64,000 nt of DNA, taken from positions 124,001-188,000 of the forward strand of contig NZ_RQPJ01000008.1 in the NCBI RefSeq assembly GCF_003957295.1, in the 5' to 3' direction. The notes under the pieces were generated by a model. That model was given only the letters and a program-made list of their open reading frames with translations, made no database searches and was not told where the DNA came from. Below are positions 11,904-27,672 of this stretch, piece by piece (position 1 is the stretch's first letter; the number at the start of each line of letters is the position of its first letter). Made by a program: the position numbers and the translations under genes. The stretch comes from Arenibacter aquaticus. Its GTDB lineage: Bacteria; Bacteroidota; Bacteroidia; Flavobacteriales; Flavobacteriaceae.

Positions 11904-12023
11904 TTGAAAATTAATTGTATATACTCAAAGGTAGCCATGATTTTAAGAAGGATTTACCGTAAGAGTTAATATTTTTTACAAAAAAGCATACAACTTATCG
12001 ATAATTATGTTAATTTTATAATT

Positions 12024-12113
12024 CATAAGTAAGACTTGAAAAATAAGTTTTTAACGCATAGACTTATTTTTTAACTTTTTAAAAGAGGACGTAGGGGTGC
12101 GGCCTCTTTTTTT
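12024..12113 (+). ncRNA. structured RNA-like element, copy A
   Basis: Begins with CATAAGTAAGAC (12024-12035). A first stem can form from AAAATAAGT and ACTTATTTT around a 13-base loop (about 12039-12071). A TTAACTTTTT linker leads to a strong hairpin AAAAGAGGaC / GGCCTCTTTT with loop GTAGGGGTGC and a T run (12081-12113), which looks like an intrinsic terminator. Copy B keeps both stems while the first stem has different sequence. It could be a small RNA or a terminator of the upstream sugar operon. Confidence 0.45.
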
Positions 12114-12226
12114 ATGCCCTAAAGTTTGCTACAATAGTCACTGTACCTAAACAATATTTTTATCACTGTCATTATTTATTGCGATACAGCACATAAACAC
12201 AATATTTAAAATTGATATTTACCACT

Positions 12227-12310
12227 CATAAGTAAGACAAGAAGATATATTTCAATTTGAAATCTGTTCTTAACTTTTAAAAGAGGTCGTAGGGGTGCGG
12301 CCTCTTTTTT
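12227..12310 (+). ncRNA. structured RNA-like element, copy B
   Basis: Same layout as copy A: CATAAGTAAGAC (12227-12238), then a stem built from ATTTCA-att-TGAAAT with outer AAGAA/TTCTT arms (about 12238-12271), then TTAACTTTT and the hairpin AAAAGAGGTC / GGCCTCTTTT with the identical loop GTAGGGGTGC and T run (12279-12310). The lower hairpin differs from copy A by one base that still pairs (T-G instead of A-G mismatch). Nothing shows a protein in it. Confidence 0.45.
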
Positions 12311-12510
12311 ATTTCCATATTCCCATCGCTTTATGTTCTAACCCTTTTGTGGTGTTTTTGAACTATGCCAAAAGGAACGATTAAACAGTTTAATGATCAT
12401 TTTATACATTACAATTCAAGCCCTAGTTTCTACAATTGGGATTTTCTTTTTTTGAAAGTAGTTGTCCTTACTACAATTTTGTTATAACAATACCAAAAAC
12501 TAACATCGCT

Positions 12511-12753
12511 ATGCAGAAAATTGTATTGATCATTATTGCTATGGTTGTAAATGAGGTAACTGCCAATCATGACCATGTAGTAAACCAGAAAGCAGAACAG
12601 GTAAATGAAACTGTTGCTTTAATGTCATCTTCCTGTCATGATCCATTTGGGAAGTGGTCAGAAGACCGTAGGCAAGCTCCAGCCCTAAGCTATTGCTTGC
12701 CTATAGGGCCTAGATGGCCGGTGGATCTTTTTATTAACTTTAGGGCAAATTAA
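12511..12753 (+). CDS. small secreted hypothetical protein
   Basis: An 80-residue reading frame. The ATG at 12511 gives a hydrophobic N-terminal segment (KIVLIIIAMVV) followed by a charged, Asn/His-rich part, two cysteines (SSSCHD and SYCLP) and the tail PIGPRWPVDLFINF. The reading frame is open further upstream (12436), but that part looks non-coding. It precedes the LytS-type kinase by 28 bp and could be its co-transcribed exported partner. I do not recognise the family, and it could be a chance frame. Confidence 0.35.
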   Translation: MQKIVLIIIAMVVNEVTANHDHVVNQKAEQVNETVALMSSSCHDPFGKWSEDRRQAPALSYCLPIGPRWPVDLFINFRAN

Positions 12754-14119: not shown

Positions 14120-14211
14120 AGATACGGTCCATCCCTTAAATTCAACAATTCATATTAATCTTTTTGAAGAGGAATGGAGATCTATCGAAATTTGAAATAA
14201 AAAGTAGAATT

Positions 14212-14514
14212 ATGGAAAATTTAGACAAGGAAAATAAGTATTACAGGGCCAAGGCGAGGGTGGAGGCTATTAAAAAATTCTATTTGAGCCTGGCATCCTA
14301 TGTTGTTTTTATAGGTTTTCTGGCAGCCCTTAATTATTGGGTGAACCAATGGCAATATGCATGGTTTCTTTGGGCGGCATTTGGTTGGGGAATAGGTTTG
14401 GTCTTTCATGCTGTAAAGGTCTTTGGGGTAAATGCTTTCTTTGGCAGGAACTGGGAAGAGAGAAAGATAAAGGAGTTTATGCAGGATGATGAAATACACA
14501 ACAAATGGAGCTAG
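14212..14514 (+). CDS. 2TM-domain protein 1
   Basis: A 100-residue protein consisting almost only of the 2TM module: a basic amphipathic start (YYRAKARVEAIKKFY), two membrane segments with the GWGIGLVFHAVKVFG turn between them and the tail, and the C-terminal signature NWEERKIKEFM. It closely resembles the C-terminal domain of the kinase encoded just upstream. ATG at 14212 is preferred to an earlier in-frame one at 14164, which would add a non-matching extension. It overlaps the next gene by 10 bases, a sign of translational coupling. Confidence 0.88.
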   Translation: MENLDKENKYYRAKARVEAIKKFYLSLASYVVFIGFLAALNYWVNQWQYAWFLWAAFGWGIGLVFHAVKVFGVNAFFGRNWEERKIKEFMQDDEIHNKWS

Positions 14515-14843
14515 AACCAAATAAACGGGACGAAAAATTGAAGCAGGCAAAAAAGAGGGTGCAGGAATTAAAAGGGTTCTATGTGCATCTGAGCATTTAT
14601 ATAGCCGTGAATACTTTGATAACCCTATTAAAAATTGTAAGAAATACCAATAATGGTGAAAGTCTAGGTGAGGCCATATGGGATTTCGGCACTTTTGCAG
14701 TTTGGATTTTTTGGGGAATCGGAGTGGTATTTCACGCATTAAAGGTGTTTTCTATAAATCCAATATTTAACAAGGATTGGGAGCAAAGGCAAATTAGAAA
14801 ATATATGGAAAGTGAAAAGAAGGAAATTGAAAAATACAAATAA
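14505..14843 (+). CDS. 2TM-domain protein 2
   Basis: A 112-residue protein with the same plan as its neighbours: basic helix (KQAKKRVQELKGFYVHL), two membrane spans, the FWGIGVVFHALKVF stretch and the tail DWEQRQIRKYME. It overlaps the previous gene by 10 bases and shares one base with the next (stop TAA and start ATG overlap), so the genes are tightly coupled. Likely role is in the membrane alongside the kinase, by heteromer formation or signal tuning; this is inference. Confidence 0.88.
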   Translation: MELEPNKRDEKLKQAKKRVQELKGFYVHLSIYIAVNTLITLLKIVRNTNNGESLGEAIWDFGTFAVWIFWGIGVVFHALKVFSINPIFNKDWEQRQIRKYMESEKKEIEKYK

Positions 14844-15166
14844 TGGATACCGAGCCAAAGGATTATGAGAATTATGTCCGCGCCAAAAAGCGTGTAGACA
14901 ACATTAAGAATTTTTATGCCCATCTTGTAATATATTTATTGATGAATATTTTACTTTTTGCTTTTAAGGGTGCTATCTTGAATTTTTTAAAATCAAAGGG
15001 AGTGGTAGATCAGGGCTTTTTAAATTGGGTGGAATGGAACCTGATATTTATTCCTATCCTTTGGGGAATAGTATTGGCAGTTACGGGCCTATACTTCCTG
15101 AAATTGAAACCGAGGTTCTTTAGGGAATGGGAAGAAAGGCAAATTAAAAAATACATGAAAGAATAA
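14843..15166 (+). CDS. 2TM-domain protein 3
   Basis: A 107-residue member of the 2TM family. It has the basic start RAKKRVDNIKNFYAHL, two hydrophobic spans (about 27-48 and 68-90) and the tail EWEERQIKKYMKE. It is more diverged in the middle than the other two, having lost the WGxGxxxHA motif in favour of WGIVLAVTGLYFL. It ends 52 bp before the response regulator gene, completing a block of kinase, three 2TM proteins and regulator. Confidence 0.87.
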   Translation: MDTEPKDYENYVRAKKRVDNIKNFYAHLVIYLLMNILLFAFKGAILNFLKSKGVVDQGFLNWVEWNLIFIPILWGIVLAVTGLYFLKLKPRFFREWEERQIKKYMKE

Positions 15167-27420: not shown

Positions 27421-27428
27421 TAGTTTCG
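27421..27428 (+). promoter_or_regulatory. -7 box (TAGTTTCG) of the btuB transcript
   Basis: TAGTTTCG matches TAnnTTTG with one change. It ends five bases before the 5' arm of the riboswitch P1 helix at 27433, so transcription from it would begin exactly where the riboswitch starts. Confidence 0.45.
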
Positions 27429-27432
27429 CTGC

Positions 27433-27628
27433 GAATTTTGGTTGCTATTCTCCAAAAGTGGGGGGATAGGATTAAAAGGGAATTCGGTGAAAATCCGAAA
27501 CTGTTCCCGCAACTGTAAACTTGGTCCATTTTTTAATGGATGGTTGCCATTTCTTCAAAAACCACTGCCCTTTTAGATTGGGTGGGAAGGTAAATGGTAA
27601 TACGTAAGTCAGGAGACCTGCCAAATTC
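27433..27628 (+). promoter_or_regulatory. cobalamin (vitamin B12) riboswitch
   Basis: The conserved blocks occur in order: GGTTGCT (27440-27446), GGATTAAAAGGGAAT with GGTGAAAATCC (27468-27497), CTGTTCCCGCAACTGTAA (27501-27518), CCACTGCCC and GGGAAGG (about 27563-27590), then the B12 box AAGTCAGGAGACCTGCC (27606-27622). The ends GAATTTTGG and CCAAATTC pair as P1. The P13-type region lies 45 bases from the btuB ATG. No T-rich terminator hairpin follows, so control is probably at translation. Adenosylcobalamin or a related cobamide would repress btuB and the BtuG-like gene. Confidence 0.96.
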
Positions 27629-27672
27629 ATCACTAAATAGTACAGACTTTCGGGCAAAGGGTCTTCTGGAAT

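Follow-up and report, generated by a model that had tools for sequence, protein, structure and literature searches.

We describe here two short elements in the genome of Arenibacter aquaticus, located within a 64,000-nucleotide stretch of contig NZ_RQPJ01000008.1 (the window, numbered from its first letter) between a sugar operon and a signalling operon. Each has a conserved 5' segment, a stem of variable sequence (SL1), a linker, and a terminator hairpin (SL2) followed by a T run, and each is preceded by a predicted promoter box and a further upstream block. The features, all on the forward strand, are as follows:

11963..11988, +, upstream block of copy A (-61 to -36), putative activator site with core GTTA
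12011..12018, +, predicted -7 promoter box of copy A, TAATTTTA, consensus TAnnTTTG
12023..12113, +, predicted sRNA copy A, from the predicted start T12023 through its T run; covariance model R3 matches at 12023-12111 (E 4.5e-12)
12023..12035, +, conserved 5' segment of copy A, UCAUAAGUAAGAC, mostly unpaired in folds and kept in alignments A6 and A7
12036..12074, +, variable stem SL1 of copy A, from the fold
12081..12113, +, terminator hairpin SL2 and T run of copy A, GGGG loop at 12094-12097
12166..12191, +, upstream block of copy B, putative activator site with core GTCA, otherwise divergent
12214..12221, +, predicted -7 promoter box of copy B, GATATTTA, degenerate
12226..12312, +, predicted sRNA copy B, with predicted start T12226; model R3 matches at 12226-12309 (E 1.3e-11)
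12226..12238, +, conserved 5' segment of copy B, UCAUAAGUAAGAC, kept in alignments A6 and A7
12239..12271, +, variable stem SL1 of copy B in the minimum-energy fold; the centroid retains only the inner six pairs
12279..12312, +, terminator hairpin SL2 and T run of copy B, GGGG loop at 12292-12295

A sequence-only reading of this DNA had proposed two elements with a common 5' end, linker and terminator hairpin, and this is borne out at exact positions. In copies A and B respectively, CATAAGTAAGAC lies at 12024-12035 and 12227-12238, TTAACTTTT at 12071-12079 and 12270-12278, and GTAGGGGTGC at 12091-12100 and 12289-12298, and a 45-nt repeat that includes the terminator is 89% identical between the two at a spacing of 198 nt. 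The nearly identical GC-rich terminator hairpin is indeed shared, but its stem is not perfectly paired, with an A-G mismatch in copy A and a U-G in copy B. The stems between the common parts differ and still fold, as had been described, and the folds of copy A (12024-12114) and copy B (12227-12313) each beat 200 of 200 dinucleotide shuffles, with z-scores of -4.42 and -3.59 respectively.

By itself CATAAGTAAGAC is common, with 25 matches in the source genome at up to one mismatch (both copies included) against 23 in a reversed control, and the significance of the elements comes from related genomes. A site on contig C19 (L001) was considered as a third copy and rejected; it matches in the 5' part and the linker, but no GGGG-loop terminator lies behind it. 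At this site (L001 1501-1551), between an FecR-like gene and a sigma-factor-like gene, the sRNA 5' 12-mer and TTAACTTTT lie close together on the same strand.

The family is found throughout the genus. Models were widened stepwise (R1, R2, R3) so as to reach other genera, and the final covariance model, R3, gives 41 matches in all 18 Arenibacter genomes, with one to six per genome and a single weak one (G002, E 4.2e-4). At least two copies lie within about 1 kb on one contig in 10 of the 18. A 21-base piece of the terminator, with up to two mismatches allowed, was found in 16 of the same genomes and never in the reversed control, and the two that it missed have one divergent copy each. In Arenibacter arenosicollis the model recognizes five copies in a row (L118 2772-3821, - strand), three of them nearly identical, and genome G004 has copies identical to these together with a sixth on another contig; the three copies are a recent amplification. 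A tree of the Arenibacter copies, in which six of 32 inner branches are well supported and the window's copy B sits on a long branch, shows a tendency to group by array position across species, and for this reason the paralogues may predate the species.

Members also occur in seven named genera of Flavobacteriaceae besides Arenibacter, such as Zobellia. A scan of named records returned 39 stretches: 15 from Arenibacter, ten from Zobellia, three from Pricia, two each from Euzebyella and Zeaxanthinibacter, and single ones from Ulvibacterium, Aurantibacter, Pareuzebyella, another Flavobacteriaceae, a Cytophaga sp. record, a Bacteroidia bin and a Deltaproteobacteria bin. We judge 38 of the 39 to be genuine, in eight named genera of the family and three records otherwise named. 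The Cytophaga and Bacteroidia records share identical copies with G363 and G238, both of which are placed in Flavobacteriaceae, and the Deltaproteobacteria match (L115) is GC-rich and a chance match, which was excluded from the upstream profile described below.

With model R2, 28 of 397 genomes of the family matched at E <= 0.001; by eye, 21 of these combine a CATAAG-type 5' end (CATGAG in one) with the GGGG loop, spread over 13 of 237 genera, and the others (G063, G070, G284, G369, G399, G405 and G411) lack the combination and are regarded as chance terminators. Model R1 gave two further chance matches within the family (L070 and L071). Model R3 matched 13 of 395 genomes of the order, seven genuinely and all of these in Flavobacteriaceae. 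The search of the class matched 10 of 295 genomes, where the source genome is the sole genuine case. Among the six rejected matches of the order, L167 begins TCATAATTAGGTT and has neither SL1 nor GGGG, L168 begins ATATAATTAGG with the loop TTGGGA, both being partial look-alikes, and L184, from the class, has the GGGG loop but not CATAAG. No clear member was thus seen outside Flavobacteriaceae among the 395 order and 295 class genomes, a distribution to be read as a lower bound because the stricter filters of the large family, order and class searches lose weak members.

The members share a 5' segment, (U)CAUAAGUARG, which begins at the predicted transcription start and shows minor variants: mostly AAG in Arenibacter and Zeaxanthinibacter and AGG elsewhere, CATAAGTTAAG or CATAAGAAAG in some Arenibacter copies, and CATGAG in one member. 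The two helices behave differently from this segment and from each other. In SL1 the stem is kept while its sequence is replaced almost completely between members, and in SL2 the stem varies by paired substitutions around a constant GGGG in the loop. Over 46 distinct sequences, 93.6% of cells are paired (97.6% in SL2) and 213 carry double changes, compared with 69 after shuffling, figures that lean towards the structure to the extent that alignments A6 and A7 (46 rows each) were fitted to that of the model. None of 500 shuffles reaches the observed value on any of five measures, sliding the partners reduces pairing from 93.6% to between 42.5% and 66.5%, and double changes are present in all 12 SL1 pairs and nine of the 13 SL2 pairs. 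RNAalifold on a MAFFT alignment recovers SL2 only, whereas each of the 21 copies folded singly forms a stem, of varying shape, in the SL1 region; the consensus structure was for this reason taken from one copy and followed by realignment with the covariance model. Five opposite-strand matches were excluded from A6 by an E-value limit, and one doubtful sequence (L092) was retained in A7 and R3. The proposal that selection acts on RNA structure is therefore supported by covariation in both helices. The support that the sequence-only reading had sought, many instances with a covarying first stem, is present, and the two outcomes it had named as speaking against itself, a lack of instances in other genomes and conservation of the terminator alone, did not occur.

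The elements match no described RNA family that we have compared them with. None of the 4227 families of Rfam 15 matches the window elements at its gathering score, permissive scans give sub-threshold rows only, and the same library has no match at gathering score in 12 loci of other genera, ten of which hold members. The flavo-1 motif, which had been raised as a possible identity, gives no row on the elements at its gathering score or at E values up to 10, and LhrC gives no row in the Rfam scans. GibS (RF04182), a Bacteroides sRNA with a model of 142 positions, scores 14.6 bits against a cut-off of 115, and FopS (RF04319), the nearest multicopy sRNA of Bacteroidota, reaches 15.5 bits at copy A (cut-off 56) and matches nowhere in the source genome at E <= 0.001. 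Elsewhere in the window, a Cobalamin riboswitch (RF00174, 110 bits) lies at 27422-27639 on the + strand.

The two elements thus look like copies of an independently transcribed sRNA family that is absent from Rfam 15, and judged from sequence we hold it very probable that they are sRNA genes. Sequence comparison finds paralogous non-coding genes each with a predicted promoter and a predicted intrinsic terminator, which is the arrangement of a multicopy trans-acting sRNA. The kind is known and the family appears to be new. FopS of Bacteroides thetaiotaomicron is described as having 14 copies of about 65-70 nt with a conserved 5' part, an intrinsic terminator and their own promoters (PMC11697453), and is therefore alike in being multicopy, short and from Bacteroidota, but its sequence is different, its Rfam model has one hairpin, its promoters are described as canonical sigma-ABfr, and it binds RbpB, an RRM_1 protein. 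In the source genome no protein matches RRM_1 (PF00076) at E <= 0.001, a search in which positive controls in Bacteroides ihuae and Synechococcus do match, and the FopS-RbpB arrangement is consequently not transferable. The LhrC1-5 RNAs of Listeria monocytogenes are likewise multicopy, with four of five genes clustered and control by one stress-responsive two-component system (PMC12101431, as described there), but their CU-rich motifs are aimed at ribosome-binding sites, and the corresponding elements here are CAUAAGUARG and GGGG. Rfp18 of Flavobacterium psychrophilum is, by its description, a conserved flavobacterial sRNA with strong predicted structure, but with target pairing predicted through a third stem-loop (PMC9723704), compared to two stem-loops here. 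Literature searches among open-licence PMC papers on sRNAs of Zobellia, Arenibacter and Bacteroidetes or Flavobacteriaceae returned nothing pointing to this family.

The genomic surroundings bear on whether the elements could instead belong to their neighbours, as a regulated leader or a pair of terminators lying between the sugar and kinase operons. Neighbouring ORFs were called mechanically, and gene names are readings of their sequence rather than results of a family search. In all 15 Arenibacter stretches of the named scan the array adjoins a gene for a Gfo/Idh-type oxidoreductase, one for a LytS-like kinase, or both, mostly in the same direction. The flanks first described for the window hold for the main array of this genus but not for other genera. 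Zobellia, Pricia, Pareuzebyella and another Flavobacteriaceae have a copy flanked by genes for an M3 peptidase and a nucleotidase-like protein, and a second locus in Zobellia adjoins exopolysaccharide genes. In Zeaxanthinibacter (L116, L121) and Aurantibacter (L101) the next downstream ORF runs convergently, which fits a leader badly, and in L101, L106 and L131 the gene upstream is oriented divergently, which fits a terminator pair badly. Since neighbour orientation changes between genera, and with the copies having predicted promoters of their own at a fixed distance, we consider both of these options very improbable; of the roles that had been left open for the elements, it is the sRNA that gains support, from its presence in all 18 searched genomes of the genus, from covariation and from the Rfam result.

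Several other features of this neighbourhood may be recorded. In the window a small predicted exported protein is encoded after the sRNA array and ahead of the kinase gene (12511-12753, +), and six similar small ORFs occupy the same place in other Arenibacter loci, forming a cluster (c14) to which the window's ORF does not belong. Between the LytS-like kinase and LytTR-type regulator genes (14164-15166, +) are three small adjacent proteins of a two-helix type, mutually similar and kept as tandem paralogues in Arenibacter.

The upstream sequences are conserved at fixed distances from the elements. Across 68 upstream regions, a profile that leaves out copies with fewer than 130 bases upstream, such as L097, a TAnnTTT(G/A) box of sigma-A type occupies positions -13 to -6 relative to CATAAG, and a second block, whose best-preserved form is GAGTTAATTTTTTTTCAAAAAAGCAC in Arenibacter, spans about -61 to -36. 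Mean information is 0.385 bits at -62..-38 and 0.591 at -13..-6, compared to 0.054 at -130..-71, and in the set without Arenibacter-type 5' ends alone the values are 0.331 and 0.491 against 0.092. The sigma-A box of F. psychrophilum is placed at -12 to -5 (PMC9723704, as described there), and from this spacing the start of transcription is inferred to be the T before CATAAG, which is also where conservation begins. A recognizable -33 box is absent from most members, including both window copies.

The upstream block suggests common control. Its GTYA core begins at -60..-58 in 21 of 33 representatives (46 of 68 rows), and other three-offset windows have GTYA in 0.94 representatives on average and three at most. 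The Arenibacter block consensus, with up to two mismatches, has 13 matches in the 18 genus genomes and none in the reversed control, and all 13 sit 37-60 bp before an sRNA copy, a search for which the window's own two blocks are too divergent. The core is missing at this position in 12 of the 33 representatives, some of which have the look-alikes GGCAATTTT or GATCAATTTT. The block is absent from six copies at the M3-peptidase locus of Zobellia, where TTTG, a box of -33 type, stands at -31 instead, from which it follows that promoters differ by locus; block-less copies of the Zobellia type are L066, L067, L074, L096, L099, L107, L112 and L128, some of these loci being identical in sequence. A regulator site shared by sibling genes, as might be looked for by comparison with LhrC, would thus be putatively present in most representatives and absent from these Zobellia copies. 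That the block places the copies under activator control is on balance probable, with our confidence lowered by the copies without it. With the main array adjoining a LytS/LytR-like pair in Arenibacter, a LytTR site was considered and rejected on the basis of the LytTR consensus, the GTC of other genera and their different neighbours.

Multiple copies, tandem amplification as in L118 and copies on other contigs in some genomes are also what a mobile or selfish repeat of REP or MITE type, lacking a regulatory function, could produce. We regard this as highly improbable, with no more than one to six copies per genome, neighbours that are constant across species in the loci examined, covariation, a promoter conserved at fixed distance, and a search of viral contigs with the family pattern that returned nothing.

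The reading that we consider best, and likely, is that of an activator-controlled multicopy trans-acting sRNA. The two elements would be sibling genes of one such RNA of about 85-90 nt, each copy driven by a separate promoter, with a -7 box of sigma-A type, and transcribed from the T before CATAAG to the SL2 terminator. In most members, both window copies included, the block 36-61 bp upstream most likely binds one activator, so that a single signal would reach all copies and several copies would raise the dose. SL1, of which the stem is kept and the sequence is not, probably serves as a spacer or stabilizes the RNA. Likely points of contact are the two segments whose sequence is conserved: the 5' end (U)CAUAAGUARG, which could pair antisense with mRNA, possibly over an AUG given that it begins with CAU, and the GGGG loop of SL2, which could contact either a protein or a C-rich target.

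Pairing of the 5' end at translation starts is a tentative proposal, to which we give somewhat less than even weight. Three candidate sites in the source genome, with names that are readings of sequence, are suggestive: UCAUAAGUAAGA has a 12-nt complement at the start of a TonB-receptor-like gene (L009/L136), UCAUAAGUAA has one of 10 nt where a pectate-lyase-like gene begins (L012), and CAUAAGUAAGAC has one of 12 nt in the leader of the FecR-like gene (L001), where the exact complement arises from the 5' 12-mer and TTAACTTTT noted above. By analogy to FopS, whose 5' part is described as acting on SusC start regions (PMC11697453), the segment might block translation of mRNAs for outer-membrane and polysaccharide-degradation proteins, but this specific form is rather unlikely, as the TonB-receptor site is present in one of the 18 genus genomes, perfect complements of the 5' end are at chance level, and the source genome, having no RRM_1 match, offers no RbpB-type partner. 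Outside the sRNA genes the complement TCTTACTTATGA occurs 14 times in the 18 genomes and 14 times in the reversed control. Of 13 complement sites examined, two are at apparent start codons, each in a single genome. A 12-nt complement recurs in five genomes (L140, L141, L147, L158 and L162, at 1501-1512) in the signal-peptide-like start region of a small membrane protein, and another site recurs in three; coding constraint can explain both. Among 957 predicted starts there are two exact complements of at least 11 bases, against a control mean of 0.07 (reached in none of 60 controls), a count biased by prior knowledge of both sites when the stretches were selected; at seven, eight and nine bases, 28, 23 and 12 of the 60 controls reach the observed count.

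The main rival to a pairing RNA is a protein-binding role of the GGGG loop. CsrB-type RNAs titrate an RNA-binding protein, and the present RNA could similarly be a decoy or scaffold, with its GGGG loop, and perhaps also its 5' segment, binding such a protein and its copies titrating it. The loop is kept while the SL2 stem changes, although terminators need no particular loop sequence, and the multicopy state and the lack of excess complementary sites are consistent with this role. Two loci of other genera also carry GTGGGGA in the loop of SL1:

L075 1501-1575, -, member with a GTGGGGA SL1 loop and a GGGG terminator loop
L082 1501-1574, +, member with a GTGGGGA SL1 loop and a GGGG terminator loop

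Among the members displayed, however, only these two have a second GGGG loop, and with no RRM_1 protein in the source genome to serve as a candidate we view a decoy as unlikely.

A more ambitious version of the trans-acting sRNA reading is a dedicated riboregulatory system of marine flavobacteria, in which one activator, with strong sites essentially only before these genes, would drive sibling RNAs having a 5' end that matches start codons and a GGGG loop served by a putative non-RRM partner. As a whole we consider this quite unlikely.

Most of what is known of post-transcriptional control in Bacteroidota comes from Bacteroides, and to our knowledge few small RNA regulators of this type are known in the group. 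The family described here, with its structure, its promoter layout and its multicopy, often tandem state established by comparison of genomes, would add another multicopy sRNA family to Bacteroidota, in marine genera, some of them, like Zobellia, degraders of polysaccharides. A clear structure model and a predicted 5' end are available for it, the common upstream block could serve as bait for a regulator, and genomes hold from one copy, which would be easily deleted, to six.
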